Positions 18,431 to 34,332 of a stretch of DNA of 64,000 bases are shown here, piece after piece. Numbering within the stretch: the stretch's first letter is position 1; each line of letters begins with the position of its first letter. The DNA comes from Phycisphaeraceae bacterium. Lineage in GTDB: Bacteria; Planctomycetota; Phycisphaerae; Phycisphaerales; UBA1924. The notes beneath the pieces were generated by a model. The model was not told the origin of the DNA, did no database searches, and saw nothing but the letters and a program-made list of their open reading frames with translations. Position numbers and translations under genes: made by a program. Location: the NCBI GenBank assembly GCA_019636795.1, contig JAHBWW010000007.1, positions 62,001 through 126,000 on the forward strand. The letters are read 5' to 3'.

Positions 18431-20380
18431 TCAGCGCCCTCGTGCGGCGGCGATGGCCTCCATGACCTGGGCGGGGGTGTAGGCGTTGGCCTGCCAGGGC
18501 GAAGCGAGGCCCGGGCCGTCGATGACCAGCAGCGGGATGCCGGTCTGGCCGAGGCTTTCGAGCCGGGCCCAGCCGGGGGCGTTGCGGCTGGTGAGGTCGG
18601 CAATCATGGGCACGACGCCGCTGCCCGCCAGTTCGCCCTTGACGGGCTGGCGGTCGAGGACGGTGGCCTTGAGCACCTGGCAGTTGAGGCACCAGTCGGC
18701 GGTGAAATCGAGCACGACGACTTCGCCGCGCGCTCGCGCCGCCGCGAGGTTCTCGGGGCTGTACGGGATCCAGATGTCGTCCATGGCCTTGTGCGTGCGG
18801 CCGAGGGCGAACTGCACGCTGGTGGCCGCGATGACGAGCCCGACAAGCGAGAACGCCGCGCGGTTGGCGGGTTTTTTCGTGATGGCGAACGTCCGCACCG
18901 CCAGCCAGAGCCCGGCGCCCGCGGCCAGGAGCGCGATGACCCACCACGAGGCGACCTTGGCCGCGACCGGCAGAGACGCAGCCCGCACCGGGTCGGCCTT
19001 GACCAGGGCCATGACGCCCGCGCCCGCGAAGTAGGCCGCGGCGGCCAGCAGCAGCAGGCCCATGACCTGCTTGACGAGGGTGCTGGCCGGACCGGTTCTC
19101 GGGATCTTGGCGACCCACTGCGGCCGAGCCGCGAGCACGAGATAGGGAGCCGCCATGCCCACGCCGATCCCCGCGAAGATCGCGATGATGTCAAAGGCGG
19201 GCATGGTCGCCAGCCCGACCAGCAGCGCCCCGGCCACGAACCCGAAACAGGGCAACCCGAGCACGGCGGTCATGATCCCGAAAACGAACGAGCCGCCGAA
19301 CGAATCGGCCGACGCATTTACGCGGTAGGCGGCTTGGGGCAGGCGGATCTCAAAGAGGCCCATGATGCCCAGCCCCATCGCCGCGATGACCAGCCCGATG
19401 CCCAGCGTGACCCACCAGATGCCAAAGAGGGCCGACGGGTCGCCGAACGCCTCGCGAAACAGCGCGACGGGCAGGCCCACGCCGATCCAGAACGCGACGA
19501 CCCCGGCTGCCATCGCGGCCCCGAGCGACAGGGCTTTGGCGGGCGTGGCGGCGTGTTTGGACAACGCCATGACCTTGAGCGGGATGACGGGCAGGACGCA
19601 GGGCGTCAGGTTGAGTACAAAGCCCCCGACGATCGCCAGCAGCACCAGCGCGATCAGCCCGCGGGGCACGGTCAAGCCGAAGAAGGTCGAGCCGCCCGCG
19701 GCGGTTTCGCGCGCGTCGGGCTGGTTGGCTCCTTCCCACGAGCGCTCGAAGACGGTGCGATCGAAGGCAGCGAAATCGCCGGTCCATGTTGGCGCTGCCG
19801 CAGCGTCTGCATCGCTTTGGTCCGCGATAGGAATGACAATCTCCCGGTCATCGAACACGGGGGCCTCGCACAGGCGATCATCGCACGCCTGGTAGATCAG
19901 TTGGAAGGTCAGACGGATTTCGCTCGCCCCCGCTTCGGGCATGAGCGGCACATAGATCGCCGCGCGGCCCTCGTAGACGGGGTAATCCATCGGTCCGTCA
20001 CCGGTGAAATCGACCTTGATGGTCTTGCTGGCCGGCCACTGGATCGGGCCGACGGCGGCGCCGGTTCCTTTCAGACCGGCCAGTTCGGTGGCGACGGCGG
20101 TGAAGCTGGGGATGGGCGGCGGGCGGTGGGTGTGGCTGTGCCAGCCGGGGATGTGGTCGAGGATGACGGCCAGGGCGAAGGGCTCGCCGGGGCGTGCGGC
20201 CGGGGCGGCGGAGACAATTTCGACTTCGACGACGGGGCCATAGGCGGCGCCGAAGGGGTCGAACCCGGGCTGGGAATTCGCTGGCGCGGCAGGGAGGCTC
20301 AGGGCCAACATGGCCACCAGCAACCCCAGCGCAGCGCGCAGCGGGCGAGACAGGGCAGAGAGCGTGATCGGGCTGTGCAT
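18431..20380 (-). CDS. dsbD: Thiol:disulfide interchange protein DsbD
   Basis: Inner-membrane protein that passes electrons from cytoplasmic thioredoxin to periplasmic thiol proteins. The 649-residue product has a signal peptide (to 'LPAAPANS') and an N-terminal DsbD-alpha domain with the Cys pair in 'YQACDDRLCEAP'. Next comes a multi-helix beta domain with the redox cysteines in 'NLTPCVLPVIPLKV' and 'GLPCFGFVAGALL'. It ends in a thioredoxin-like gamma domain with 'DFTADWCLNCQVLK'. All three cysteine pairs are present. The frame stays open far upstream, but that part is antisense to murQ; I start at the ATG followed directly by the signal peptide. With DsbD the organism can reduce or repair disulfides in the many Cys-containing exported proteins. 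Confidence 0.94.
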   Translation of the reverse strand: MHSPITLSALSRPLRAALGLLVAMLALSLPAAPANSQPGFDPFGAAYGPVVEVEIVSAAPAARPGEPFALAVILDHIPGWHSHTHRPPPIPSFTAVATELAGLKGTGAAVGPIQWPASKTIKVDFTGDGPMDYPVYEGRAAIYVPLMPEAGASEIRLTFQLIYQACDDRLCEAPVFDDREIVIPIADQSDADAAAAPTWTGDFAAFDRTVFERSWEGANQPDARETAAGGSTFFGLTVPRGLIALVLLAIVGGFVLNLTPCVLPVIPLKVMALSKHAATPAKALSLGAAMAAGVVAFWIGVGLPVALFREAFGDPSALFGIWWVTLGIGLVIAAMGLGIMGLFEIRLPQAAYRVNASADSFGGSFVFGIMTAVLGLPCFGFVAGALLVGLATMPAFDIIAIFAGIGVGMAAPYLVLAARPQWVAKIPRTGPASTLVKQVMGLLLLAAAAYFAGAGVMALVKADPVRAASLPVAAKVASWWVIALLAAGAGLWLAVRTFAITKKPANRAAFSLVGLVIAATSVQFALGRTHKAMDDIWIPYSPENLAAARARGEVVVLDFTADWCLNCQVLKATVLDRQPVKGELAGSGVVPMIADLTSRNAPGWARLESLGQTGIPLLVIDGPGLASPWQANAYTPAQVMEAIAAARGR

Positions 20381-20578
20381 CGGGTCGGGCTCCAGGTTCG
20401 GAGGGATGAACGCCTCCGGTGGCGGGATTGTTCGCAGGCCGGATGGTCGGTGCGCGGAGGAGGGTGTTTGCCCCTGATGGCCGGCTGACCTGCCCGCCCA
20501 AGCCCACTTGCGGGCCGGATCAGCACTTTTCCTACGGTGCAGGCCCCCGCCGCCGTGACGGCCGCCGCGCCGAATCGC

Positions 20579-20584
20579 TATTGT
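20579..20584 (+). promoter_or_regulatory. -10 box for leaderless murQ transcript
   Basis: TATTGT, six bases before the ATG at 20591; GTGACG about 18 bases upstream could be a weak -35. AAAGGG touches the ATG and is too close to act as a Shine-Dalgarno site. Confidence 0.45.
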
Positions 20585-20590
20585 AAAGGG

Positions 20591-21535
20591 ATGCATCCCA
20601 CGCCGCCTGACCGGGGAAAGGTCGCGACGGAATCCCCCAATCCCGCTACCGGGGGGCTGGGGGACATGGATATCGCCGACTGCGTGGCAGCCCTGATGGC
20701 CGTCGATGCCGAGATCATCGCTGCGATGGCCGCCGCCCGGCCCGCCCTGACCGCACTGATCGAGCGGGCCGCGCCCGGTTTCGCCGCGGGAGGGAGGGTG
20801 ATTACCGTAGGGGCGGGGACCAGCGGCCGCCTGGCGGTCCTCGACGCTGCCGAACTGGGGCCCACGTTCTGCCTCGAGCCCGGGCGGTTCATCGCCCTGA
20901 TCGCCGGGGGCGACGCGGCTCTGCGCACCAGCAGCGAGGGACGCGAAGACGACCCGGCCGAGTTTGCCCCCGCCCTGGGGGCGCTGAACCTGGGTCCGCA
21001 CGACACCGTCATCGGCCTCAGCGCGGGCGGGACCACGCCTTGCGTGCTCGGGGCGCTCACGCTCGCGCGAGCGGCCGGCGCGGGCACGGGGCTGATCGCG
21101 TGCAGCCCGACCGCGGCTGCCAACGCCGCCGACCTGGTCGTCATCATCCCCACCGGCCCCGAAGCCATCGCAGGCTCGACGCGCCTCAAGGCGGGCACCG
21201 CGACCAAGATGGCGCTCAACCTCATCAGCACCGCGCTGATGATCGCCGACGGCCGGGTGCATGAGAACCTCATGGTCGATGTCCGTCCCGCCAACGCCAA
21301 ACTCATCGACCGGGCCGCGCGCATCATCACCCGACTCACGGGCGCTGAGCGCGACGCGGCGCTGGCGCTGCTCGAGCGCGCGGGCGGGAGCGTCAAGGTC
21401 GCGGTGCTCATGCACGAGCGGGCGCTCGAGCGCGCCGAGGCCGAGGCCGCGCTGGCCGCCGCCCGCGGCAGGCTGCACGCAGCTCTGACCAGCACGGCCG
21501 CGATCGCGCCAGCGCCCCGCACCGGGTCGCTATGA
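20591..21535 (+). CDS. murQ: N-acetylmuramic acid 6-phosphate etherase
   Basis: Cleaves the lactyl ether of MurNAc-6-phosphate, giving GlcNAc-6-phosphate and D-lactate in cell-wall recycling, in the cytoplasm. The 314-residue SIS-domain protein shows 'VATESPNPATGGLGDMD' (family 'TEQRNP' region), the sugar-phosphate loop 'VGAGTSGRLAVLDAAELGPT', the second loop 'IGLSAGGTTP', and 'GSTRLKAGTATKMALNLIST' with 'VDVRPANAKL'. The catalytic Glu region is preserved in 'SEGREDDPAE'. The ATG at 20591 is favoured by a -10 box six bases upstream; an ATG at 20537 would add 18 non-conserved residues. No MurNAc transporter is nearby. thrS starts 39 bases downstream. Confidence 0.94.
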   Translation: MHPTPPDRGKVATESPNPATGGLGDMDIADCVAALMAVDAEIIAAMAAARPALTALIERAAPGFAAGGRVITVGAGTSGRLAVLDAAELGPTFCLEPGRFIALIAGGDAALRTSSEGREDDPAEFAPALGALNLGPHDTVIGLSAGGTTPCVLGALTLARAAGAGTGLIACSPTAAANAADLVVIIPTGPEAIAGSTRLKAGTATKMALNLISTALMIADGRVHENLMVDVRPANAKLIDRAARIITRLTGAERDAALALLERAGGSVKVAVLMHERALERAEAEAALAAARGRLHAALTSTAAIAPAPRTGSL

Positions 21536-21574
21536 TCGAGCCACACGGCGCACAACGCGCCCGAAGGATCGCTC

Positions 21575-23641
21575 ATGCCCCGCATTACTCTGCCCGATGG
21601 TTCCGTTCGTGAGTTCGCCGCGCCCGTGACGGCGCGGGCCGTGGCCGAGGCCATCGGCAAGCGCCTGGCCGCCGACGCTGTCGGAGCCGAAGTCGATGGA
21701 ACCGTCGTCGATCTGTCCGCCGTCATCGCCGATGATGCGCGCGTCGCCATCATCACGCCGAGCACGCGCGACGGCAAGGCCGACCCCCGCGCCCTCATGC
21801 TGCTGCGCCACTCGACCGCCCACGTCATGGCCGAAGCCATCCAGAGGCTCGTGCCCGAAGCCATGCTCGTCTACGGCCCGCCGCTCGAGACCGGGTTCTA
21901 CTACGACATCGCCTTCCCCGAAGGCCGGCCCCTGCGCGAAGGCGACTTCGAGGCGATCGAAGCCGAGATGGGCAAGATCGTCGCCGAGGACCGCGCGTTC
22001 ACCCGCTACGAGGTGACGCATGACGCGGGCATGACCAAACTCAAGAGCGAGGGAAGCAAGTACAAGATCGACAACGCCCTTCGTGCCCACGAGGCGGGCA
22101 GCCCGACGCTGACGTTCTACGCCACCGGCGAACCGGGCAGGAACTGGGAAGACCTGTGCCGCGGCCCGCACATCCCCTCGACCGGACGCATCGGGGCGTT
22201 CAAGATCACAAGCCTGGCGTCGAGCTACTGGCACGGCGACGAGAACAGCGACCGCCTCACGCGGGTCTATGGCACCGCGTTCTTTTCCGCAAAGGACCTC
22301 GATGAGCACGTCACACGTCTCGATGAGGCCAAGAAGCGCGACCACCGGGTCATCGGCCGCGCCCTGCGGCTGTTTCATATCGACGACATGGTCGGGCAGG
22401 GCCTGATCCTGTGGACCCCGGCCGGGGGCGTGGTGCGTGATGAGTTGCAACGGTTCATCTCGGACGAACTCAAGAAGCAAGGCTACCACCAGGTGTTCAC
22501 GCCGCACATCGGCAAGCTCGATCTGTACCGCACGAGCGGGCACTTTCCGTACTACGCCGACAGCCAGTTCCCGCCGCTGGTCGAACGCGACGAGATGGAC
22601 AGCCTCATCGCCGAAGGCTGCTCGTGCGCGGACCTGGCCAACCGCATGAAGACCGGCAACATCGAAGGCTTCATGCTCAAGCCGATGAACTGCCCCCACC
22701 ACATCCGCATCTTCGCCAGCCAGCCGCACTCATACCGCGACCTGCCGGTGCGCCTGGCCGAGTTCGGGACGGTGTACCGCTGGGAGCAGAGCGGCGAACT
22801 CAACGGGCTGACGCGGGTGCGCGGCTTCACGCAGGATGACGCCCACCTTTTTTGCACCGAAGACCAGGTGGGGGCCGAAGTGACCGGCTGCCTCGAACTG
22901 GTCAAGGTGATCTTCAAAACGCTGGGCATGACGGATTACCGCGTGCGCGTGGGGCTGCGCGACCCCGACAGCGGCAAGTACGTCGGCAAGGCCGAGGTAT
23001 GGGACAAGGCCGAACGCGCGTGTCGCGAGGCCGCGGCCTCGCTGGGCGTGCCCTTCAGCGAGGAACCGGGAGAGGCGGCGTTTTACGGCCCCAAGATCGA
23101 CTTCGTCGTCAAGGACGTGATCGGGCGCGAGTGGCAGCTGGGCACGGTGCAGGTCGATTACAACCTGCCCGAACGCTTCGACCTTTCGTACATCGGGCCC
23201 GACAACCGGCCCCACCGGCCCGTCATGATCCATCGCGCGCCGTTCGGGTCGATGGAACGCTTCTGCGGCGTGCTCATCGAACACTTCGCCGGGGCCTTCC
23301 CGACGTGGCTCGCACCCGAACAGGTCCGCGTGCTGCCCATCAGCGAGAAGAGCGCGGCGTATGGCCAGCGCGTGACGGCGGCGCTGCGGGCGCGCGGCGT
23401 GCGCGCCAGCATCGATGACGGCAACGAGCGCGTGCAGGCCAAGATCAAGCACGGCTCGGAGATGAAGATCCCGTACCTGCTGGTCGTCGGACCACGCGAT
23501 GAAGAGAACGCGACGGTGAGCGTGCGCGCGCTGGGCATCGAGAAGGATCTGGGAGCCATGGGGCTCGAAGCGTTCGTCGAGGCGATTGGAGAGGAGATCG
23601 CGGGGCGGGGAGAGAGCACGGTACGGGAGCGACTCCAATGA
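21575..23641 (+). CDS. thrS: Threonyl-tRNA synthetase
   Basis: Charges tRNA-Thr in the cytoplasm. The 688-residue protein has the N-terminal TGS domain ('MPRITLPDGSVREFAAPVT'), the editing domain with 'HSTAHVMAEAIQRL', a class II catalytic core with 'MLKPMNCPHHIRIF' (zinc Cys and motif 2 region), 'RWEQSGELNGLTRVRGFTQ', 'HRAPFGSMERFCGVLIEHFA' (motif 3), and a C-terminal anticodon-binding domain. Length and domain order are standard. GAAGGA before the ATG sets the start. The stop overlaps the next gene by four bases (ATGA), indicating translational coupling. A tRNA-Thr (CGT) is encoded 13 kb further on. Confidence 0.97.
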   Translation: MPRITLPDGSVREFAAPVTARAVAEAIGKRLAADAVGAEVDGTVVDLSAVIADDARVAIITPSTRDGKADPRALMLLRHSTAHVMAEAIQRLVPEAMLVYGPPLETGFYYDIAFPEGRPLREGDFEAIEAEMGKIVAEDRAFTRYEVTHDAGMTKLKSEGSKYKIDNALRAHEAGSPTLTFYATGEPGRNWEDLCRGPHIPSTGRIGAFKITSLASSYWHGDENSDRLTRVYGTAFFSAKDLDEHVTRLDEAKKRDHRVIGRALRLFHIDDMVGQGLILWTPAGGVVRDELQRFISDELKKQGYHQVFTPHIGKLDLYRTSGHFPYYADSQFPPLVERDEMDSLIAEGCSCADLANRMKTGNIEGFMLKPMNCPHHIRIFASQPHSYRDLPVRLAEFGTVYRWEQSGELNGLTRVRGFTQDDAHLFCTEDQVGAEVTGCLELVKVIFKTLGMTDYRVRVGLRDPDSGKYVGKAEVWDKAERACREAAASLGVPFSEEPGEAAFYGPKIDFVVKDVIGREWQLGTVQVDYNLPERFDLSYIGPDNRPHRPVMIHRAPFGSMERFCGVLIEHFAGAFPTWLAPEQVRVLPISEKSAAYGQRVTAALRARGVRASIDDGNERVQAKIKHGSEMKIPYLLVVGPRDEENATVSVRALGIEKDLGAMGLEAFVEAIGEEIAGRGESTVRERLQ

Positions 23642-24801
23642 GCGAAAAAATCTTCGACTTCGACTCTCTTGTCAAGACTCCCGAGGCAAAATCGAAGCCA
23701 GCGAAGAAATGGCACAGACTGCCGCTCTGGGCATGGGTCATCGCGCTCCCGTGTTGGCTGATCTTCTTTGTTCTTAAAATGCTCGATAGTGCAACAATCG
23801 TGAGTGATGCACCCGACAAGTTCGAGGCCGCACGCGGCGTGGGCATCGTGCTAGGCAGTTTTCTCACGTTGGCAATCTGCTGGGGGATCGCGCTAGGCAT
23901 CGGTCTGGTCTCAAGGTCCAAACGCACTTCATACGCCAGTGTCTTCGTGGTACTGTCGTGTTTCATAGCGTTCGGACAAGTCTGGGGTCATCTGCAGGAA
24001 ACACTTCGGCAGTACGGCACGTCACCGCAGGACAAGTCGGTCGCGGAGCTTCAAGCGTACCAGGCCGAGGTTCAGGACCGACGTCGCGCACAGATCGAGA
24101 GCGGCGATTACTCGATCGACACCAACACGCTCGATGAAACTGCCGAGCGGCTGAGGGCCGCGGGTGCCGCCAGCGGAACAATGCAGGACAGGGTCATCGC
24201 CGAAGTGTCCGCCGCATTGGTCGAGCGTGTGCGCGATGCCTCCGCCGCGTACACCGCCGCGGTCAACGCGCTGGCGGATCCCTCGGCGTTTGATCTGGTT
24301 TGGATCGAAGACAGGGAGGACCTCGACGACATTCGGCGGCGCGTGGCGCAGTTCCGTGTCGCGAACGAAGGCCTGCGGTCCGCCACATCCCCCACGCTCG
24401 AATATTTTGAAACCGAGTTCGCCAAGCGGGGCATCGCGGATCCCTTTCACGCTGCGGACTTTTTCCAGACCGTGCGCAACCACTCGAAACACGCGATCGT
24501 GCTCCAGTTGCGAGACTTGGACGCGGAGTTTTGCGATCTGGGCGACCGGGCGGTGGCGCTGCTCGATAAAAATTGGAAGGAGTGGAGCTTTGATCCCGAG
24601 ACCGGTGAACTGTTCCTGCACAACGACGAGTTGTTCGAGGGCTGGAACGCGATCACCGACCGGGTGAACGCGATCGCAGCCGAGCAGACGAGACTGATCC
24701 ACGAGATCGCGGGCCTTGCTCCCGAAGTTGAACCGGAGTCCGAGACAAGTGATAAGCGCCCTACGACGGAAGCACCCACATCGGACGACGACGGAGATTG
24801 A
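23638..24801 (+). CDS. Two-helix membrane protein of unknown function
   Basis: A 387-residue protein with a soluble N-terminal stretch of 30 residues, hydrophobic helices near residues 31-45, 75-95 and 101-117, and a long alpha-helical, charged C-terminal domain of about 260 residues with coiled-coil character ('AVAELQAYQAEVQDRRRAQ'-like segments). I do not recognise a family. The start overlaps the thrS stop by four bases, so it is translated together with thrS. Its end is followed within 14 bases by a repeat element whose hairpin may end the transcript. Confidence 0.7.
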   Translation: MSEKIFDFDSLVKTPEAKSKPAKKWHRLPLWAWVIALPCWLIFFVLKMLDSATIVSDAPDKFEAARGVGIVLGSFLTLAICWGIALGIGLVSRSKRTSYASVFVVLSCFIAFGQVWGHLQETLRQYGTSPQDKSVAELQAYQAEVQDRRRAQIESGDYSIDTNTLDETAERLRAAGAASGTMQDRVIAEVSAALVERVRDASAAYTAAVNALADPSAFDLVWIEDREDLDDIRRRVAQFRVANEGLRSATSPTLEYFETEFAKRGIADPFHAADFFQTVRNHSKHAIVLQLRDLDAEFCDLGDRAVALLDKNWKEWSFDPETGELFLHNDELFEGWNAITDRVNAIAAEQTRLIHEIAGLAPEVEPESETSDKRPTTEAPTSDDDGD

Positions 24802-24814
24802 CGTCGGGTGACTC

Positions 24815-24905
24815 CGCCTCGGCTTTGCGCGGCGAGGCGGGGTACGCTGTGGACGGAGCTGGGCCATTGATCGTGGCCATGCAGAGCCATGACCACGGCA
24901 CCCGG
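24815..24905 (+). repeat. MITE-like element, copy A (right part only)
   Basis: About 91 bases matching the right two thirds of copies B and C, including GCTGTGGACGGAGCTGGGCC and the right terminal arm ATCGTGGCCATGCAGAGCCA. The left arm is missing. It starts 14 bases after the stop of the membrane-protein gene. The outer part forms its own hairpin CCGCCTCG/CGAGGCGG. Confidence 0.82.
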
Positions 24906-24990
24906 CGGTAGCGTCGGCGTCGCCCGAGACGTGGTATGCTCCTGACAGCCGAGCGAATCGCGACCCGCATCACCTTCCACACGCACTCGT

Positions 24991-25037
24991 CCATGCTTAC
25001 CTCCTTGTGATCCTGGCAGACCAAGGGGTAAGCATGG
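24991..25037. repeat. Perfect-arm palindrome, 16-17 bp arms
   Basis: CCATGCTTACCTCCTTG (24991-25007) faces CAAGGGGTAAGCATGG (25022-25037) around a 14-base loop; the arms match except for one skipped base. It lies in a 562-base interval (24802-25363) that holds copy A of the MITE-like element and no recognisable gene. It may be an RNA hairpin or an element end. Confidence 0.7.
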
Positions 25038-25363
25038 CATGCGCACACACTTCATGCAAGTTCGTACGCACTTCGCGAAATCCTCCACGGGTGGAGCGCA
25101 ACCCGTGAACACATCCTCCCCCTCCTCTCGCCCAGACAGGGGCGAAGGAGTTGCCGCCGGACGCCGTGGCTGGTGCTCGATTCGAGGAAGTTTCCGTGTG
25201 GTCTTCTGCGGTCTCGGCTGTACAATTGGACATGACGACGTGCGGATCGGTTCGAAGCCAGATTCGGGTGAGGTGTTCCCGTATCGGTGCAGCGGATCGC
25301 GGGTTTGCCTGGAGGGTGGCCGGGCTCGTCGCCCGGTTCGCCTGATGGGAAGGAGGAATCACA

Positions 25364-26812
25364 ATGTGTATTCTGAAACGACCGAAGGTGAACGGTGTTC
25401 GAGTCTTGGCGACCGGGCTGAGGTGGGTGGTGTCGGCGTGCGTGCTCGGCGGCTTGCTGGGACCGACCGCGCGGGCGGACGACGATTGCATACCGCTGTG
25501 GTCGGCACTGGCCGGTCCGAACGCCGTGGGCTTGAGCGGTGGGAGTTTTGCGAAAGTGGGATCCCTGACGGTGTTCGACGACGGCACGGGCCCGGCCCTC
25601 TACGCCGGGGGCTCCTTCATCACCGCCGGGGGTGTGACGGTCAACAACATCGCGCGATGGGACGGCCACGAGTGGTCAGCGCTGGTCAGCCCGGAGCGTG
25701 TGGGCATCGACGACGAGGTCGAGGCCCTGACGGTGTTCGACGACGGCTCGGGCCCGGCCCTGTATGTCGGGGGCTGGTTCCTCGTTTACCTCGAGCGATG
25801 GGACGGTGAGGAGTGGTCGGTGCCCTCAAACACGCCCTATCTGGCCGTGAACGGCGAGGTGTTTGCCCTCAAGGTGTACGATGATGGTTCCGGCCCGTCC
25901 CTGTACGCCGGGGGCTCCTTTTTCGCCGCCGGGGGGAGGGTTGCCAACGGCATCGCGTCTTGGAACGGTTCCGAATGGTCGGTGTTGGCCGGCCCGTCCG
26001 GCGTGGGATTGCAGTACCGCTTCGGAGGCCTGGCCGCGGTCTTTGACATGGCGGGGTTCGACGACGGCACCGGTCCAGCCTTGTATGTCGCAGGCGAATT
26101 TGAGATCGCCGGCGGCGTGCCGGCCGACGGCATCGCACGCTGGGACGGACACGCGTGGTCGGACTTGGAATCCTCGGGAGTCATGCGCGCGATCGCAATC
26201 TATTGCCTGGCCGCGTTTGATGACGGCTCGGGCCCCGCTCTGTATGCCGGCGGCTACTTCAGAACCGCCGGGGGGGTGACCGTCATTGGCGTCGCACGCT
26301 GGGACGGCCATGACTGGTCGCTTGTCGGCGGCGAGGTTGGCAGCGTCAGGGCTCTGACGGTATTCGACGACGGCTCGGGCCCGGCCCTGTACGCCGGGGG
26401 CTCCTTTTTCACCGCCGGGGGGGTGACCGTCAATGGCGTCGCACGCTGGGACGGCCACGATTGGTCGGCGCTGGCAGGGCCGGACGGGGTGGGCGTGGAC
26501 GGCCCGACTTTTCCGGGCGTCTACGCCCTGAAGGCGTTCGACGACGGCTCGGGCCCGGCCCTGTACGCCGGGGGGCGTTTCACCACCGCAGGGGGGGTGA
26601 CGGTCAACAGAATCGCCCGGTGGCAGAGCTGCGCGACGCCGCCGTGCGTCGTGGACTTCAACAACGACGGCGTGCTCGACATCTTCGATGTGCAGATATT
26701 CCTCGGACTGTACGCTTCGGGCAGTTACCGCGCCGACTTCACGGAAGATGGCGTGCTGAACTTCTTCGATGTGCAACGCTTCCTGAACCTCTTCGCGACC
26801 GGCTGCCCGTAG
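25364..26812 (+). CDS. Secreted seven-repeat protein (probable beta-propeller) with dockerin-like end
   Basis: A 482-residue exported protein. After a long signal region ('MCILKRPKVNGVRVLATG', cleavage near 'PTARAD'), seven repeats of about 50-60 residues follow, each built on 'FDDGSGPALYAGGSF', 'TAGGVTVNGVARWDGHDWS'. Seven such units fit a seven-bladed beta-propeller. The C-terminus is the dockerin-like doublet ('DIFDVQIFLGLY', 'NFFDVQRFLNLF') ending in GCP. GGAGGA seven bases before the ATG sets the start. The repeats are close in DNA sequence as well, so the number of repeats may vary between strains. The ligand or function is unknown; the architecture suggests a cell-surface or matrix protein. 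Confidence 0.82.
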   Translation: MCILKRPKVNGVRVLATGLRWVVSACVLGGLLGPTARADDDCIPLWSALAGPNAVGLSGGSFAKVGSLTVFDDGTGPALYAGGSFITAGGVTVNNIARWDGHEWSALVSPERVGIDDEVEALTVFDDGSGPALYVGGWFLVYLERWDGEEWSVPSNTPYLAVNGEVFALKVYDDGSGPSLYAGGSFFAAGGRVANGIASWNGSEWSVLAGPSGVGLQYRFGGLAAVFDMAGFDDGTGPALYVAGEFEIAGGVPADGIARWDGHAWSDLESSGVMRAIAIYCLAAFDDGSGPALYAGGYFRTAGGVTVIGVARWDGHDWSLVGGEVGSVRALTVFDDGSGPALYAGGSFFTAGGVTVNGVARWDGHDWSALAGPDGVGVDGPTFPGVYALKAFDDGSGPALYAGGRFTTAGGVTVNRIARWQSCATPPCVVDFNNDGVLDIFDVQIFLGLYASGSYRADFTEDGVLNFFDVQRFLNLFATGCP

Positions 26813-26929
26813 CCTCGTGCGAGAACCGCTACGACTCGACAACACGATCCCGACCGGCACGAGCGCGAGGATCGACGCGATTTCTCACGCTGAAGATATC
26901 GACCTGGGGCCGGGTGCCATGTCCATGGC

Positions 26930-27062
26930 TTTGCATGGCCATGACGGATGCTCACTGGGCCGAGTCCCGATGCTTCGGCTTTGCGCAGCGAGGCGGGGTA
27001 CGCTGTGGACGGAGCTGGGCCACTGATCGTGGCCATGCAGAGCCATGGGCACGGCACACCGG
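26930..27062 (+). repeat. MITE-like element, copy B (full length)
   Basis: About 133 bases with imperfect terminal inverted repeats of about 33 bases: left CCATGTCCATGGCTTTGCAT, right complementary CCGTGCCCATGGCTCTGCAT. The central part holds the sequence shared with copies A and C (AGCGAGGCGGGGTACGCTGT). It lies about 120 bases after the stop of the propeller gene, in the same orientation as the other copies. Short frames on both strands differ between copies, so it is not coding. Confidence 0.85.
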
Positions 27063-27147
27063 CTCGGCAGTCTCCAAATGTGTCAAATAAGAAAGATCCC
27101 ATCGGCCCAAAGAGGCAGCACCTTCTTGACGATCAGTGAGGCTCAAC

Positions 27148-27411
27148 ATGAAAGAACTTCCTATTCCACCAGAAGCAACGGCGGACCCATATGCAAGAGA
27201 ACTTGTTCGCGTGTGGGCTGCTGAAGGTTGTCAGCATGTCTCATTGGCCGGCGGGCTTTGGTCTGACCCTGCTGCTTGGGGCTTGCTCCTTGTGGATCTC
27301 GCAAGGCATGTGGCTTCTCATTACGAACATAAGGAAGGACGAAATCCATCTGAAGTACTAAATCGTATCAGAGAAGCCTTTGATGCTGAATGGGAGTCTC
27401 CGACTGACTAA
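27148..27411 (+). CDS. Small DUF5076-like protein
   Basis: An 87-residue protein starting 'MKELPIPPEATADPYARELV', with 'VWAAEGCQHVSLAGGLW' in the middle and a helical, acidic C-terminus. The 'LPIPP..A..D..A.E..RVWAA' pattern resembles DUF5076, a small family of unknown function; I recall this from memory and cannot confirm it here. GTGAGG six bases before the ATG at 27148 decides the start over a GTG at 27136. The gene sits alone between two full copies of the MITE-like element. Confidence 0.7.
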   Translation: MKELPIPPEATADPYARELVRVWAAEGCQHVSLAGGLWSDPAAWGLLLVDLARHVASHYEHKEGRNPSEVLNRIREAFDAEWESPTD

Positions 27412-27431
27412 TTCGAGCGAAGAATGGAGCC

Positions 27432-27573
27432 AGGTGCCGTGGCCATGGCACTGCATGGCCATGACGGATGCACACTGGGCCAAGTCGATGCTTGGGATTT
27501 GCGCAGCGAGGCGGGGTACGCTGTGGACGGAGCTGGGCCATTGATCGTGGCCATGCAGAGACATGACCACGCC
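27432..27573 (+). repeat. MITE-like element, copy C (full length)
   Basis: About 142 bases. The left arm GTGCCGTGGCCATGGCACTG faces the right arm CATGCAGAGACATGACCACG; the centre contains GCGGGGTACGCTGTGGACGG as in copies A and B. It begins 21 bases after the stop of the DUF5076-like gene. The position just behind a stop is the same as in copies A and D. Confidence 0.85.
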
Positions 27574-27633
27574 GCCCTCATTGACCCATCGCACCTCACT
27601 GTTCTGTAGAGCAACCGCGCCGCTGCCGACTGG

Positions 27634-27639
27634 TATAGT
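27634..27639 (+). promoter_or_regulatory. -10 box for leaderless transcript
   Basis: TGGTATAGT, an extended -10, with TATAGT six bases before the ATG at 27646. Transcription would start at or beside the start codon. No Shine-Dalgarno sequence. Confidence 0.55.
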
Positions 27640-27645
27640 GCTCTG

Positions 27646-29499
27646 ATGTCAGACTTCAGCGACATGATTGCGGGAATCGGGCTCATCATCGGCGCGAGTG
27701 GGATCCTGCTGATCCTGCTTGTCTGGGGGGCGAGCGTGCTCTACCGCGGGCTTGATGGCGATCGCTTTCTGGTGCGCGGGCGGGTCGAAGGGCGGTGGGT
27801 TAATCCGGTCAACTGGCGGCTGATCATTCTCGGGGCGGGGTCGATCGGGCTGGGGTGGTTTATTGTGGGCGTTGGGACCTTTGCAGCCCGGCCCGAGACC
27901 GGGCCGGCGTGGTTTGTCTGGTCGCTGGCGCTGAGCGGGGCGCTGGCGCTGACGCCCGCGGCTTTTGCGTGGGCGTGGGTAGGCCGGCGGGCGGCAGGGA
28001 AGCCGCGCTGCCCGAAGTGCCTGTACAACGTCGCGGGTATCAAGGACCTGACGTGTCCGGAGTGCGGGTTCGCAGCCCAGACCGAGGCCTTCTGGTTCAA
28101 GCCGCGCAAGCGCAAGCGGGGCTTTGTGTTCGCGGCACTCATGCCGCTGGCGGCGGCGGTGCTGATCGCGCTGCCTTTTGTCGATCGTGTGCCCTGGCGC
28201 GCAGCGATCCCGACGGGCGTGCTGATCGGCCGCGTTGAGAGCCTCTCCGACACGATGCTGGGGCTGGACTATGACGGGTACTCTTCTCGCTTCACACCCA
28301 GGCAGGGCTCGCTCCTTGATCGCCTGATGAAAGGCACCCTGAGTCTGGATGAACTCGATGCGCTCGGGCTGCGCATCGAGGAGCTTGCCACGAGAACGCG
28401 CGATCCCAGGCAGTTGCTGCGGCTGCTCACAATCTCGACCTCGGCGGGCATCCATGTCACCATCGCGCCCGATGAGGGCGACTTTGCCGCCTGGGTTGCC
28501 GGAGCGCTCGAACCCGATGCCGGAGAACACCTGTATTGGTTCTCGCAAAACTGGCATCACCTGATCTCGATCAAGGTACCCCCTGCCCTGCCGCGCGCAG
28601 AACGGGCCGACATGATCGAGCGCCTACTCGCGGCGATGGCGGTCGGTCAGGTGGACTACCTGCACAACATGGTGCGAACGTTGACGGCTTGTGTACTGGC
28701 GGGTGATGATCAGGGGCTGCTGGATGCAATCGTTGAGGCAATGGGTGAGGGTCTCACAGCGAATCTGTTCGATGGCCAGGATGTCAATCGGGTCTCTCGC
28801 CTGACCGTGTTGCCCAGGGTCATGGCTCATGCGCAGCCTGAGCGGGCACCAGAGCGTGCGTGGGCGCGATGGTTCGAGGCTGCGGATGCCGATGAGCGGG
28901 CTGTCTGGTCGGCGGCGATCGTATGGTTCAGCGTCACGCTGGGCGAATCGAACCCGTGGAGCGGTGTGCAACAGTCTGCGTCAGAGCGCGCCAGGGCCGT
29001 CCCGCTGACCCCTGCGCAAAGAAAGGATGCGCTCGATCGGGTGCTGGCCGACATTGCCTCGCACCCGCAACTGCTGGCCGAAGCGGGAAGCTGGCAATCC
29101 CGCAGCGTCGAGGCCCTGCGCAATCTGGCCTTCGTGCTGCTGGCGCACTCTGACGCCGAGGCGCTTCTGCTCGAAGCGCTGGCCCAGCCCGCGGCGATCG
29201 ATCGGGCGGTCGCGCTGGCGACGCTCGAAGGATCGACCCGAACTCCGCTGTTTCGGCTTGAGACGCTGCTGGAGTTGGCACATCACGAACACCCGCCCCT
29301 GCGGGCGGCGGCGGTGTGGTCACTGCGTCAGGAATTGGAATGGTCAGATTCCAATCGCGACCTCTACGCTGAGCAGGTGCTGGCCTTGCCCAAGTATCCA
29401 GAGAACGTCGCGCTCATCGCGCTCATGCGCTATTGGATGGGCCAGGAAGTCCCCGATGACGACGACGCAGCGGGCGATGCGGCGGGCGAGTCGCCCTGA
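27646..29499 (+). CDS. Membrane protein with zinc ribbon and HEAT-like C-terminus
   Basis: A 617-residue protein of unknown function. Hydrophobic helices lie near residues 8-30, 62-84 and 90-110; then a four-Cys ribbon 'CPKCLYNVAG...CPECGF' (residues about 125-145), a further hydrophobic segment after 'KPRKRKRG', and a large soluble domain. The last 200 residues look like helical HEAT-type repeats ('LAFVLLAHSDAEALLLEAL', 'LRAAAVWSLRQELEW'), with an acidic tail 'DDDDAAGDAAGESP'. The ribbon form is shared with the 16.8-18.1 kb protein. An extended -10 box six bases before the ATG suggests a leaderless mRNA. A MITE-like copy follows the stop. Confidence 0.75.
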   Translation: MSDFSDMIAGIGLIIGASGILLILLVWGASVLYRGLDGDRFLVRGRVEGRWVNPVNWRLIILGAGSIGLGWFIVGVGTFAARPETGPAWFVWSLALSGALALTPAAFAWAWVGRRAAGKPRCPKCLYNVAGIKDLTCPECGFAAQTEAFWFKPRKRKRGFVFAALMPLAAAVLIALPFVDRVPWRAAIPTGVLIGRVESLSDTMLGLDYDGYSSRFTPRQGSLLDRLMKGTLSLDELDALGLRIEELATRTRDPRQLLRLLTISTSAGIHVTIAPDEGDFAAWVAGALEPDAGEHLYWFSQNWHHLISIKVPPALPRAERADMIERLLAAMAVGQVDYLHNMVRTLTACVLAGDDQGLLDAIVEAMGEGLTANLFDGQDVNRVSRLTVLPRVMAHAQPERAPERAWARWFEAADADERAVWSAAIVWFSVTLGESNPWSGVQQSASERARAVPLTPAQRKDALDRVLADIASHPQLLAEAGSWQSRSVEALRNLAFVLLAHSDAEALLLEALAQPAAIDRAVALATLEGSTRTPLFRLETLLELAHHEHPPLRAAAVWSLRQELEWSDSNRDLYAEQVLALPKYPENVALIALMRYWMGQEVPDDDDAAGDAAGESP

Positions 29500-29521
29500 G
29501 GAGGCGGGTGTCCTTACCACG

Positions 29522-29569
29522 GCTTTGCCACTGATCGTGGCCATGCAGAGCCATGGTCACGGCACCCGG
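29522..29569 (+). repeat. MITE-like element, copy D (right end only)
   Basis: About 48 bases matching the right terminal arm of copies A-C (CTGATCGTGGCCATGCAGAG and the following CACGGCACCCGG). It begins about 20 bases after the stop of the upstream gene. The centre and left arm are absent. The remaining 29500-29707 interval holds no gene. Confidence 0.8.
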
Positions 29570-29707
29570 CCGAGAAAGTGGGCGGGGAGTGAGCCTGCTG
29601 CGGGTGCATGCACCAAAACGGGGCTGAAGACTGCCGATCTCGACTCGGCGGGCCCATAACGCAGCCCGTGCCCGCCTACCCTCGCCTTTTCCAGCCAGAC
29701 CCCCGCC

Positions 29708-31060
29708 ATGACCACTCCGCCCACCCGCCGATACCTCGGTTTCTCGACCGCCGACGCCTTCCTCTTCGCGATCATGGTCGGCTGCGGGGAGGCGTACTTC
29801 GGGGCGTTCGGGCTGGCGGTGGGCATGAGCGAGATTCAGGTGGGCTTGCTGGCGTCGGTGCCGCTGCTGATGGGAGCGGCCATTCAACTCATGAGCCCGA
29901 CGATGGTGCGGCTGCTCGACTCGCACAAGAAGTGGGTCATCATCTGCACCGCGCTGCAGTCGATCGCGTTCGTGCCGATGATCGTGATGGCGGCGATGGG
30001 CAAGGGGTCGGCGTTTTTCGTGTTTGCAGCGGCGGCGATGTACTGGGGGGCCAACCTGGCGACGGGCCCGGCGTGGAACACATGGATCGGCACCGTCGTG
30101 CCGCGCCCGATCCGCTCGCGCTATTTCGCGTCGCGCGGGCGCGTGGCGCAGGTGGGCATCGTGCTGGGGCTGGTCGCGACCGGGCTGCTGATCCGTCAGA
30201 GCGAGACCGAGCGCAGCCCCGCGATCTTTCTCGTGCCGTTCATCATCGCCATGATCGCGCGCTTCGCGTGCATGTGGCTGCACGGGGCGATCGCCGAGCC
30301 GAGGCCCATCCCGCAGACCGAGCAGCGCCTGCCGATCCGCGAGCTGGTCTTCGGCAAGTTTTCGGCCTCGGGCGGGCGGCTGCTGCTGTACATGCTCTGC
30401 GTGCAGGTGTGCGTGCAGATCTCGGGGCCGTACTTCACGCCATTCATGCTCGGACAGCTCGAGTTCAGTTACACGACCTTCACGTTGATTCTCATCGCGT
30501 CGTTCGTGGGCAAGATCATCGCGCTGCCGTTCCTCGGGCGCATCGCCAAGGTCATCGGCGAGCGTGCGCTGCTGTGGATGGGGGGCATCGCGATCATCCC
30601 GCTGGCGGCGGTGTGGGCGGTGACGGACCATCCGGTGGCGCTCATCGGGCTGCAGTTCGCCGCGGGCTTTGCGTGGGCGTGCTACGAACTGGCGACGACG
30701 CTGATGCTCTTTGAGTCGATCCCCGCGGCCAAGCGTACGGCGATGCTGACGCTGTACAACTTTCTCAACGCGGTGTGCGTGGTCGTCGGGGCGATGATCG
30801 GGGCGGCGATTCTCAAGACGCTGGGCAGCGACCGCGAGGCGTACCTGATGCTGTTCATCATCAGTTCGATCGTGCGCGTGCTGACGCTGCCGCTGCTGAC
30901 GTGGATCCATGTGCCCGCGTTCGTGCCGAGGCTGCTGCCGTTGCGGACCTTGAGCGTGCGGCCCAACGCGGGCTCGGCCGAGAGGCCGGTGCTGGCCGCC
31001 GATGACGACGCGCCGGGCCCGGAAGTAGAAGAGGAAGAGGTCAAGAGCGGGGCGTCGTAA
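29708..31060 (+). CDS. MFS-type transporter
   Basis: A 450-residue integral membrane protein of the major facilitator superfamily with about 12 hydrophobic helices. Visible features: N-terminal 'STADAFLFAIMVGCGEAYFG', a short cytoplasmic loop after helix 2 ('RLLDSHKKW'), 'PAWNTWIGTVVPRPIRSRYF' in the central half, and a second half beginning 'FSASGGRLLLYMLCVQ'. The C-terminal 45 residues are acidic and cytoplasmic. The substrate cannot be inferred. I see no ribosome-binding site before the ATG. The next gene starts 212 bases downstream. Confidence 0.85.
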   Translation: MTTPPTRRYLGFSTADAFLFAIMVGCGEAYFGAFGLAVGMSEIQVGLLASVPLLMGAAIQLMSPTMVRLLDSHKKWVIICTALQSIAFVPMIVMAAMGKGSAFFVFAAAAMYWGANLATGPAWNTWIGTVVPRPIRSRYFASRGRVAQVGIVLGLVATGLLIRQSETERSPAIFLVPFIIAMIARFACMWLHGAIAEPRPIPQTEQRLPIRELVFGKFSASGGRLLLYMLCVQVCVQISGPYFTPFMLGQLEFSYTTFTLILIASFVGKIIALPFLGRIAKVIGERALLWMGGIAIIPLAAVWAVTDHPVALIGLQFAAGFAWACYELATTLMLFESIPAAKRTAMLTLYNFLNAVCVVVGAMIGAAILKTLGSDREAYLMLFIISSIVRVLTLPLLTWIHVPAFVPRLLPLRTLSVRPNAGSAERPVLAADDDAPGPEVEEEEVKSGAS

Positions 31061-31272
31061 GACGGTGGCGTCCGGGCGAGGCGTAACGCGGCGCGGGAGG
31101 GCATTGGTGTCCTGCGGTGTTCGCACAAAGTTCGCATCGGGGGCCAATCGGGGGGAGGTCTTAGGCATTTTTCTCACCCGCGGGTCCCGAAATCTGCTAC
31201 CTTGGGATGTCGGCCTTGGCGCGAGGGGCGCCAAGGTCTGGGACATCTCACACGCAGGTTCAGGGGAGCAGC

Positions 31273-34200
31273 ATGTCGAAGACTCGGAATCGAACAGTGG
31301 CGATCGCGCTGGCAGCCGTCGCCGGATTGGCTTTTTCATCTCACGCGCAGGTGCAGTGGCGTTCATCACCCGACGGGATCCTTGCCGTCCAGACCCCCGC
31401 CACGGTTCAGCAGTCGCTGGCCACGCTGGCGGCGCGCGAGAACCAGAAACGCGTGGTCATCGAGTTTTCGCGGGCGCTCTCGCAGAGCGAACGCGAACGG
31501 ATGGCGACGGCGGGGGTGAACGTGCTCGCGCCGATCGGAGGCGGAGCGTACTTCGCCTCGCTGGGGGGCGCGAACTTCGACGCGGCACGCGCGATCACCC
31601 TGAGCGGCATCGCGCGAGTGCGCGCGATCGACACGAACTGGAAACTGCACGAACTGTTCACCACCGGCCAGCGCACAGAGTGGGCGGAAGTCGGAGGCAC
31701 GCCGGAGAACCCGGTCGTCGGCGTGTATGTGCAGTTCCATCAGGACGCAATGCTCGATCTGGCAGCGGAAAAACTTATCGAGCAGTTCGGCGGGACCGTA
31801 CGCGACTTGATGGTCAGCGCCAATGCCTATGTCGTCGAGATGCCGCGCGACAAGGTCGAGGCGCTGGCAGCGATGGACGCGATCCAATGGATCGAACCGG
31901 CCCTGCCACAGATGAGCGAACTCGCACTCAAGCGCAACAACGAAAACCGCGCGCTCACGGCCGTCGATACGGTGCAGAGCGTCTACGGGCTCGACGGCAC
32001 GGGCGTGAAGGCGCTGATCTATGACGGCGGGCGCGCTCGCCTCACACACTCGTTCTACGCCGGACGCATCACCTCGATCGATTCGGCAAGCATCATCTCG
32101 CACGCCACGCACGTCGCAGCAACGGTCGGAGGCTCGGGCGCTGTCGGCACGGGAAATCACCGCGGCATGGCACCCAACGCCACGCTGTTCACGGCCGGGT
32201 TCCAGACCGATGGCTCCGGGACATTCCTCTATACCAACCCCGGCGACATCGAACTGGACTACGGCAACGCGATCAACAACCACGGCGTGGTGCTGATGAA
32301 CAACTCGATCGGCACCAACACCGAGACCAATGGCTTCCCCTGCTCTATTCAGGGGGATTACGGCATCACCGATGTCGTGATCGACAGCATCGCACGAGGA
32401 TCGATCGGGCCCGCGCCGATCATCGTCTGGGCAGCCGGCAATGAACGCCAGGGAACGCGCTGCAATGTCGAGGGTTACGGCTCGTACTACTCCTCCGCCC
32501 CGCCCGCTGGCGCCAAGAACCACCTGTGCATCGGTGCGGTCAACGCCAACAACGACTCGATGACGTCGTTCAGTTCGTGGGGCCCCACCGACGACGGACG
32601 CCTCAAGCCCGACTTTGTCGCGCCCGGGTGCCAGTCCAACGGTGACGGAGGCGTCACGAGCGCCTCATCATCGAGCGACACCGCCACGAGCGTCTCGTGC
32701 GGCACCTCGATGGCATCGCCCACGGCCTGCGGCATCGTCGCGCTCATGCTTCAGGACTATCGCATTCAGTTCCCCGGCCGCAACGATCCGCTCTCCTCGA
32801 CTGTCAAGGCGCTGCTCGCGCACACCGCGGTCGATCTGGGCAACCCCGGGCCTGACTATCAGTTCGGCTACGGCTCGATCCGCGCGACCAGCGCGATCGA
32901 CCACATGCGGCTCGACTCGCATCAGGAAGTCGACATCGAGAACGGCGAGGTGCGTTCGTTCTTCTTTACGGTCAATCCGGGAGAGACTTCGGTCAAGGTC
33001 ACCGCGGCATGGCCTGATGTTCCTGCAGCCGCGAACGCGACAGTCGCACTGATCAACGATGTGGATATCCGCCTGGTCTCGCCAAGCGGTGTGGTGTTCC
33101 AGCCTTGGACACTCAACCCGCTCAATCCATCGGCGGCTGCGGTGCGCACGACGCCCAACCGCCGCGACAACATCGAGCAGGTGCTCGTGGACAATCCGGA
33201 ACCCGGGCAGTGGCGGTGCGAGGTCGTCGGGCACTCGATCCCGAGCGGGCCTCAGGTCGTGTCGCTCGTCGGGCCTGGCGGCATGATGGAGCGCGGCGTG
33301 CGTATTCTCGTCTCGACCGTACCGTCGCTGGTCGATCCGGGCACGACGCTCACGGCCGACGTCACGATTCTCGTGGTCGAAGACGCGCTCGTTCCAAACT
33401 CCGCGATGCTGCACGCACGCAACAGCGGCGGCTCGTTCATCTCGACGCCTTTGAGCAGTCTTGGCGGTAACGCCTACTCGGGCCAGTTGCCTATGGCACT
33501 GTGCGAGAATCCGATGGAGTTCTTCGTGACGGCCGAAGGCGTCACGGCGGGCATTGTGTCAGCGCCGGCCGGCGGCGAGAACAACCCGTTCAGCGTGACC
33601 GCAGGCAACTTCAACGTCGCCTTTGCCGACAACTTCAACACCAATCTCGGCTGGACCGTGACCAACTCGGGCGGCCTGACCGACGGAGCCTGGGAACGCG
33701 CGATTCCTGTCACCGGCGATGCATGGGCTTCGCCGACCAGCGACTACGACGGCTCGGGGTGGTGCTATGTCACCGCCAACCGCAACGGCAACTCCGACGT
33801 GGACAACGGCTCCACCACGCTCACCAGCCCCGTCTTTGACGCCACCGGTGGCGATGCCTATCTCTCATACGCACGCTGGTTCCACAACACCTACGGCGCC
33901 AACCCCGGCATCGATGTGTTCGTCGTCGAAATCTCGAACAACGACGGCGCGTCGTGGCAGAATCTCGAAACCGTCGGGCCGACCGGGTCGCAAAGTTCGG
34001 GCGGGTGGTTCCATGTGAGTCATCGCGTGGCCGATGTCATCACGCCCACCAGCACGATGCGCGTGCGGTTCGTTGCGTCGGATCTTGGGCCCCAGGCGTA
34101 TGTCGAGGCTGCGGTCGATGCGTTTGCGATCACCAGTTTCGATTGTGAGAATCCGATCAGCAAGTGTGATGTGGATCTGACCGGAGACGGCATGCTCGAC

Positions 34201-34332
34201 TTCTTTGACGTGCAGGCATTCCTCGCGCTGTTCGCAGCCGAGGATCCGGCGGCTGATTTCAACAACGATGGCGAGTTCAACTTCTTCGATGTGCAGGGCT
34301 TCCTCGCGGCATTCAGCAAGGGTTGCCCGTAA
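31273..34332 (+). CDS. Secreted subtilisin-like serine protease (S8) with dockerin-like C-terminus
   Basis: A 1019-residue exported protease. Residues 1-26 are a signal peptide ('MSKTRNRTVAIALAAVAGLA'). A propeptide-like region runs to about residue 220. The S8 catalytic residues are Asp251 ('ALIYDGG'), His280 ('ISHATHVAATVGG'), Asn390 ('WAAGNERQ') and Ser479 ('SCGTSMASP'). A C-terminal region of beta-rich domains follows, including a P-like segment ('INDVDIRLVSPSG'), and the protein ends in two dockerin-like repeats ('DFFDVQAFLALF', 'NFFDVQGFLAAF') and GCP. GGGGAG before the ATG at 31273 sets the start over an ATG 22 codons upstream. Two terminator hairpins follow the stop. Confidence 0.92.
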   Translation: MSKTRNRTVAIALAAVAGLAFSSHAQVQWRSSPDGILAVQTPATVQQSLATLAARENQKRVVIEFSRALSQSERERMATAGVNVLAPIGGGAYFASLGGANFDAARAITLSGIARVRAIDTNWKLHELFTTGQRTEWAEVGGTPENPVVGVYVQFHQDAMLDLAAEKLIEQFGGTVRDLMVSANAYVVEMPRDKVEALAAMDAIQWIEPALPQMSELALKRNNENRALTAVDTVQSVYGLDGTGVKALIYDGGRARLTHSFYAGRITSIDSASIISHATHVAATVGGSGAVGTGNHRGMAPNATLFTAGFQTDGSGTFLYTNPGDIELDYGNAINNHGVVLMNNSIGTNTETNGFPCSIQGDYGITDVVIDSIARGSIGPAPIIVWAAGNERQGTRCNVEGYGSYYSSAPPAGAKNHLCIGAVNANNDSMTSFSSWGPTDDGRLKPDFVAPGCQSNGDGGVTSASSSSDTATSVSCGTSMASPTACGIVALMLQDYRIQFPGRNDPLSSTVKALLAHTAVDLGNPGPDYQFGYGSIRATSAIDHMRLDSHQEVDIENGEVRSFFFTVNPGETSVKVTAAWPDVPAAANATVALINDVDIRLVSPSGVVFQPWTLNPLNPSAAAVRTTPNRRDNIEQVLVDNPEPGQWRCEVVGHSIPSGPQVVSLVGPGGMMERGVRILVSTVPSLVDPGTTLTADVTILVVEDALVPNSAMLHARNSGGSFISTPLSSLGGNAYSGQLPMALCENPMEFFVTAEGVTAGIVSAPAGGENNPFSVTAGNFNVAFADNFNTNLGWTVTNSGGLTDGAWERAIPVTGDAWASPTSDYDGSGWCYVTANRNGNSDVDNGSTTLTSPVFDATGGDAYLSYARWFHNTYGANPGIDVFVVEISNNDGASWQNLETVGPTGSQSSGGWFHVSHRVADVITPTSTMRVRFVASDLGPQAYVEAAVDAFAITSFDCENPISKCDVDLTGDGMLDFFDVQAFLALFAAEDPAADFNNDGEFNFFDVQGFLAAFSKGCP

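Follow-up and report, generated by a model that had tools for sequence, protein, structure and literature searches.

Four repeats in a planctomycete genome very probably belong to a REP-RAYT system with a GTGC-tagged hairpin

Four related repeats lie in the window, by which we mean the whole 64,000-nt stretch of DNA analysed here (positions 62001-126000 of contig C7 in the 3.49-Mb, 8-contig genome G000). We are confident, though short of certain, that these copies are REPs and REP doublets (REPINs) of a single REP-RAYT system and that the RAYT encoded on C7 is its cognate enzyme. A RAYT with matching ends, together with arms that are hairpins of the REP type, points to a REP/REPIN-RAYT system and not to a classical MITE. 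The first-pass annotation had described a MITE-like element with imperfect terminal inverted repeats, a description we replace, because each arm is a REP hairpin belonging to a RAYT (HUH/Y1, single-strand) system. The copies, and the gene between the second and the third, are:

24816-24906, + strand: copy 1, without left arm; spacer/centre plus right (A-type) arm at 24870-24906, the arm with 1 mismatch to the consensus
26909-27062, + strand: copy 2, complete inverted doublet; left (B-type) arm 26909-26945, spacer 80 nt, right (A-type) arm 27026-27062, arms with 5 and 4 mismatches
27148-27411, + strand: DUF5076 gene (PF16826, E 1.9e-29), of low GC, between copies 2 and 3
27429-27580, + strand: copy 3, complete inverted doublet with a degenerate outer right end; left (B-type) arm 27429-27465, spacer 78 nt, right (A-type) arm 27544-27580, arms with 4 and 7 mismatches
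29534-29570, + strand: copy 4, single right (A-type) arm, 1 mismatch to the consensus

Repeat search and reading agree that the four related repeats are real. The sequence TGGCCATGCAGAGCCATG, at up to 3 mismatches, matches the window 6 times against 0.10 expected, a count reached in 0 of 100 shuffles. All four copies point one way, as had been claimed, and the common centre reported for three of them is an 86-nt block (centre plus right arm) shared at 78-81 of 86 positions, with copies 1 and 2 identical at 81. The make-up first proposed (two complete copies, one without its left arm, one right arm alone) stands, and its limits have been corrected: we place them where conservation across 42 arms ends, so that copy 2 begins at 26909, 21 nt ahead of the start first given. 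About 22 nt ahead of the arm of copy 4 resemble, in side-by-side comparison, the inner flank of the arms at C4:219010 and C5:260668. Folded as single-stranded DNA, copies 2 and 3 each form one long hairpin (-44 kcal/mol, z -4.5, and -36.6 kcal/mol, z -2.5, respectively), and truncated copy 1 scores z -1.6. Single arms are variable (z +0.5, -2.35 and -1.2); the left arm of copy 2, by itself, folds no better than shuffles (z +0.5).

A genome-wide search for further copies was productive. The 37-nt arm occurs at least 43 times with up to 11 mismatches in 37, a count that covers 200.8 kb of loci around the first matches of the search, with the candidate C3:507383 lying outside the scan and one arm row with 12 mismatches left out; a shuffled control allowing up to 12 mismatches gave 0 matches. 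The arms are scattered over contigs C1, C2, C3, C4, C5 and C7. From the outer end an arm reads GCCGG, the tag GTGC and a 10-bp stem with a GCTCTG-type loop, and conservation at the outer end breaks off sharply after GGCACCCGGC (42 arms). The arms fall into sub-types A (CGTGG.../...CCACG) and B (CATGG.../...CCATG), which are told apart by a change in both partners of one stem pair; of the 43 arms, 31 have G-C at this pair and 10 have A-T. Another stem pair is often broken, being non-standard in 14 of 43. Eight inverted doublets, 145-204 nt overall with spacers of 71-130 nt, always carry their tails outward, and the remaining arms are singles or direct repeats. An arm at C7:160857-160893 ends 2 nt from the end of C7, and the arms at C5:136-256 fall within the first 260 nt of C5, as if the assembly broke inside these repeats.

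Searching G000 with NCBIfam NF047646 returned four RAYTs, all outside the window; to that extent the claim that the window holds no transposase was correct. One match, at C7:160306-160773 (95.5 bits), lies on the same contig, ~71 kb from the window copies, and is the transposase with matching ends, bracketed by the same arms: two arms (160157 and 160197) lie upstream and one inverted arm (160857-160893) downstream. The gene encodes a stand-alone RAYT of 187 aa, and the unit, 737 nt long, is the one copy with these ends in the genome. Thus the earlier picture of a small palindromic element, dispersed and non-autonomous, with its enzyme encoded elsewhere, is borne out by the genome copies and the RAYT. 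The predicted model of the protein (mean pLDDT 93.7) is best matched by E. coli TnpA-REP (4ER8, Z 16.5 over 144 residues), followed by the transposases of IS608 (11.8) and ISDra2 at Z ~11-12, and its sequence profile matches 4ER8 with E 4.5e-14. Matches of the model to tRNA-His guanylyltransferases (Z ~7-9) are taken to indicate a common fold. H63 and H65 (the HUH motif) never vary in a 43-row RAYT alignment, nor do N147 and P148; Y143 is almost invariant. The Y motif here reads Y143-I-H-T-N-P. PF01797 alone finds two Y1 genes in G000, neither with these ends, and misses the cognate RAYT; for L103 there is no match in Pfam.

The other three RAYTs of G000 were considered as cognate enzyme and rejected, since none is flanked by a window-type arm. 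None appears in the scanned loci around the RAYTs at C1:446608 and C5:332359, and the whole-genome search gave no match on C6, where the RAYT at C6:85949 has another palindrome. The RAYTs at C5:332359-332817 and C6:85949-86401 are stand-alone genes, each with its own different inverted flanking repeats, so that this genome holds several REP-RAYT families.

Orthologues of the C7 RAYT in two other genera, 60% (genome G014) and 68% (G024) identical, are likewise flanked by palindromes. We searched all three genomes with the three arm variants at up to 3 mismatches. The G000 variant has 39, 5 and 16 copies in G000, G014 and G024, the G014 variant 0, 18 and 0, and the G024 variant 6, 3 and 18; reversed patterns gave 0 in each of the three. 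The margin in G024 (18 of its own against 16 of the G000 variant) is small because the patterns overlap at 3 mismatches, and with the limit set at 0-1 mismatch the G024 counts are 7 for its own variant and 4 for the G000 pattern. The RAYT of each genome is flanked by that genome's own arm variant, as expected for a cognate pair (PMC6006769, in part).

A route by which such arms would spread can be proposed. In single-stranded DNA the arms would fold into hairpins; the RAYT would bind tag plus hairpin and cut beside the hairpin with its HUH/tyrosine site; arms or doublets would then be joined into new single-stranded sites without target duplication and, over time, could spread through intergenic DNA. 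The cutting and joining, like present activity, use by the host and the descent of the window doublets, are matters that we infer.

Under a classical MITE reading, the repeats would be double-stranded elements with inverted repeats, moved in cut-and-paste fashion by a DDE-type transposase that has matching ends. In its favour are the inverted ends and the want of coding capacity, and some doublets do look like internal deletions of a longer unit. However, the unit with matching ends encodes a Y1/HUH enzyme, each arm is itself a hairpin, many arms are single, and no target duplication was visible by eye in the 12 nt on each side of the four window copies, one truncated and one a single arm. We therefore regard a MITE as very improbable. 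Some doublets may nevertheless be called MITE-like in so far as they keep remnants of both RAYT-unit ends; the two in the window do not. Local segmental duplication, by which the copies would have arisen without transposition, we rate just as low. As duplication would have it, three copies lying inside 2.8 kb resemble one another more closely than most others do, but the arms are spread over six contigs and the 200-nt flanks of the copies are unrelated: in 12 comparisons none scored above all 200 shuffles, and the strongest was equalled or exceeded by 6 of 200.

That the copies were recruited as 3' RNA hairpins, serving as transcript ends or mRNA stabilisers, is compatible with a REP origin and would explain their placement by use; we think it improbable, if less so than the two readings above. 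In its favour, 41 of 43 arms lie outside predicted genes (about 17% of the window is intergenic by the same crude gene finder, which missed the gene at 27148-27411), and the four window copies trail stop codons of called ORFs by 14, 96, 17 and 34 nt, so that the earlier statement that three begin 14-21 bases after a stop is only roughly true. Against it, no terminator-like site overlaps any window copy and an Rfam search of window positions 20000-34000 gave no match. Moreover, the 36 arms with both neighbours called sit in 25 co-directed, 7 convergent and 4 divergent gaps, whereas these classes provide 20.5, 6.5 and 6.3 kb of the intergenic bases in the scanned loci. Convergent gaps thus show no excess over divergent ones beyond their base shares, and the position of each copy behind a gene, first read as a 3'-end preference, looks like an extragenic bias.

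Given a REP-RAYT system, how its doublets formed can be approached through their spacers. How REPINs arise is described as an open question in the part of PMC3116915 drawn on here, where internal deletion is offered merely as a possibility. We set each spacer beside the inner sequence of the RAYT unit at either end and scored the match against 500 dinucleotide shuffles, which makes 16 tests. Five tests scored above every shuffle (p <= 0.002, or <= 0.032 after multiplication by 16): both sides of C4:218900, both sides of C5:260668 and the B side of C3:405390. The B-side match spans the position of the RAYT stop codon. Three further tests gave 0.004 (C1:726588 A, C3:22995 B and C3:405390 A) and one 0.024 (C1:643909 A); the other seven were not significant, including all four of the window doublets (0.11-0.89). 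Doublets that retain both ends of the RAYT unit are sequence evidence for an origin by internal deletion, and some doublets of this genome probably arose in this manner. The centre of the window doublets is shared with C1:726588 and, more weakly, with C3:22995, and the window doublets may be later, shortened members. The doublets examined in G014 are short and resemble a doublet downstream of the G014 RAYT, not the RAYT-unit ends, indicating that internal deletion is not the sole route.

The hairpin foot of the G000 consensus reads GTGC. A GGGTGCC-like stretch beside otherwise differing hairpins was first noticed at RAYT loci, with GGGTGGC at L124 and GTGTGCC at L122. In E. coli TnpA-REP the residues W94, Q95, E100, H101 and R104 are reported to read GTAG (PMC6006769, in part); the stretch matching them here, mapped by eye, is WQ.GGG[YFH]DRN, which defines a GGG class. 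GTGC stands at a hairpin foot within 260 nt in 53 of 63 GGG-class loci (12 of the 13 in which the tag was discovered and 41 of the remaining 50), in 44 at the exact place, as compared with 7 and 4 in control windows 700-1100 nt away. The hairpin finder gave no GTGC at ten loci; L124 and L136 have GTGG beside the hairpin. Across the class GTAG occurs in 1 of 63 and GTGG in 7 of 63. Among 21 RAYTs of the phylum whose motif is E. coli-like (WQ, 2-4 residues, [FWYH][EDQ]H), none has GTGC and 15 have GTAG, and nine further loci of the phylum with other motifs have GTGC in 2.

These counts come from a non-random sample, in which the best matches were taken first and 20 loci chosen with short and 20 with long frames were added. 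There were 93 loci with a match, and eight were dropped before the tag count, three seen twice (L112, L114, L150) and five remote or fragmentary (L107, L123, L125, L126, L127). Eleven loci that failed the motif pattern were placed by eye, ten in the GGG class (L115 without the motif region) and L180 in the nested class described below. In a tree of 109 RAYTs, whose bootstrap is not fully settled, a 100/98 branch sets all 62 GGG rows, along with two others, apart from the rest. The Fisher p of 1.4e-12 for tag against motif class overstates the causal evidence, as tag and motif differ across one supported split; the association is a correlation only and essentially one event. Several dispersed arms of G024 (L237-L245) carry GTGG where others carry GTGC, hence the tag is variable within a single system. 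In the main text of PMC3733652 and PMC6006769 no word begins with GTGC. Among the literature matches listed for GGTGCC in a RAYT context, the string in PMC2817692 (seen in part) follows a GTGG head; those for tyrosine transposase with GTGC are unrelated by title, and a search for repetitive extragenic palindromes in Phycisphaerae gave no match. A foot tag of GTGC rather than GTRG or CGTC looks like an unusual feature of the system.

A GC element edge looks like a second. How RAYTs choose cut sites is treated as an open question in the part of PMC8266576 consulted, according to which some of the tag bases determine the dinucleotide that is cut (A3G4 with CT) and changed tags shift the cut site in one system and not in two others. 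Applied to GTGC, this guide rule leads one to expect a GC edge. In 33 of 42 G000 arms, which are related copies found with a consensus containing GC, the conserved sequence ends in this dinucleotide, placed exactly 3 nt outside the tag; it is there in 14 of 28 arms of G014 and G024 and, as the commonest dinucleotide at that place, in 29 of 137 feet of a wide set of tagged hairpins. The idea of a GC edge was formed after the data had been seen. For GTGG the model would expect CC, yet none of the seven GTGG arms of G024 has that edge. A natural change from GTRG to GTGC, an altered tag-reading stretch and a GC edge make the guide model directly testable.

The DUF5076 gene stands apart in composition and distribution. 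The interval 27062-27428 has a GC of 0.503 against 0.617 for the window, and 7 of 1273 windows of 367 nt have GC <= 0.51. DUF5076 was found in 2 of 61 genomes searched, this one included, and within the family in 1 of 37, here alone. The gene is possibly a passenger. From copy 2 to copy 3 a putative composite of two direct REPINs around a gene would measure 672 nt, compared with 737 nt for the RAYT unit. The other low-GC inter-arm interval, C2:445548-446079 (GC 0.54), was considered as composite cargo; it holds a dockerin-like ORF of a locally common kind (by eye) and therefore lends the idea no support. Elsewhere in the window, the gene at 25364-26812, for a 482-aa protein, contains a 63-nt internal repeat in seven copies, and the protein's ending (DFNNDGVLDIFDVQ...) is dockerin-like by eye. 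The gene at 31207-34332 has, also by eye, a similar ending; Pfam matches are below cut-off.

A joint reading would have GTGC as a third tagged REP superfamily, in Planctomycetota, evolved together with the remodelled RAYT loop WQ.GGG[YFH]DRN. The tag would still act as guide, its last two bases pairing with the cut dinucleotide, and cutting and insertion would have moved from CT to GC. REPINs of this genome would originate when the RAYT unit loses its interior, and two of them would jointly carry a foreign DUF5076 gene in the place of the RAYT. Taken as a whole we consider this reading speculative and rather doubtful.

A second RAYT clade, perhaps more surprising than the finding in the window, lies in frame inside host enzymes at 22 loci: C1:446608-446997 of G000 (L100), and L105 and L176-L195 in other genomes of its family; the class was selected for its long frames. 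By sequence motifs the hosts are ValS (10), RdgB/Ham1 (8), LeuS (3) and a 2-amino-3-ketobutyrate CoA ligase-like enzyme (1). Pfam agrees in the six examined, with Y1_Tnp inside the host, below cut-off in L178. By pattern, HUH is present in 20 of 22 and Y...NP in 20 of 22, and the linkers often read like translated REPs (GFQPV). In the tree a branch with support 100/99 separates the clade, whose distribution calls for 5 or more changes of host, as if a RAYT had moved in frame between essential genes. A literature search for in-frame RAYTs in tRNA synthetases with REP gave no match.

Among known systems, the closest are the REPINs and RAYTs of Pseudomonas fluorescens, E. coli and Nostoc as given in the sections of PMC3116915 used here. 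They share dispersed inverted doublets foldable as one hairpin, a lone RAYT with the same REPs on its flanks, and an inferred non-autonomous spread. They differ in the tag (GTAG/GTGG there, GTGC here) and in spacer length, which is greater here (71-130 nt); furthermore, some spacers here keep RAYT-unit ends, which is only a possibility there. E. coli TnpA-REP (4ER8) with its GTAG REPs shares the fold (Z 16.5), the HUH and Y...NP motifs and a hairpin with a tag at its 5' foot; it has W94-Q95...E100-H101...R104 (PMC6006769, in part) where the present enzyme has WQ.GGG[YFH]DRN and the tag GTGC. TIRtrons/TIRYTs (PMC3733652, in part) likewise have a RAYT-like gene between partly self-complementary inverted repeats and dispersed copies; some of their TIRs carry GGGGWSAS, whereas here the repeats are REP hairpins with a one-sided tag and that motif is not in the consensus. 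IS200/IS605 elements (IS608, ISDra2) share a Y1 HUH enzyme, hairpins near the ends and adjoining guide bases (PMC8266576, in part). Those elements are multi-copy and autonomous with Y...Q (PMC6006769, in part), and the RAYT unit here is single-copy with Y...NP. Of the REP superfamilies, the GTRG-tagged one has GTAG or GTGG at the foot, the G000 consensus having GTGC there and some G024 arms GTGG. The CGTC-tagged superfamily has CGTC at one end and no associated transposase gene, whereas the repeats described here combine GTGC with a RAYT.
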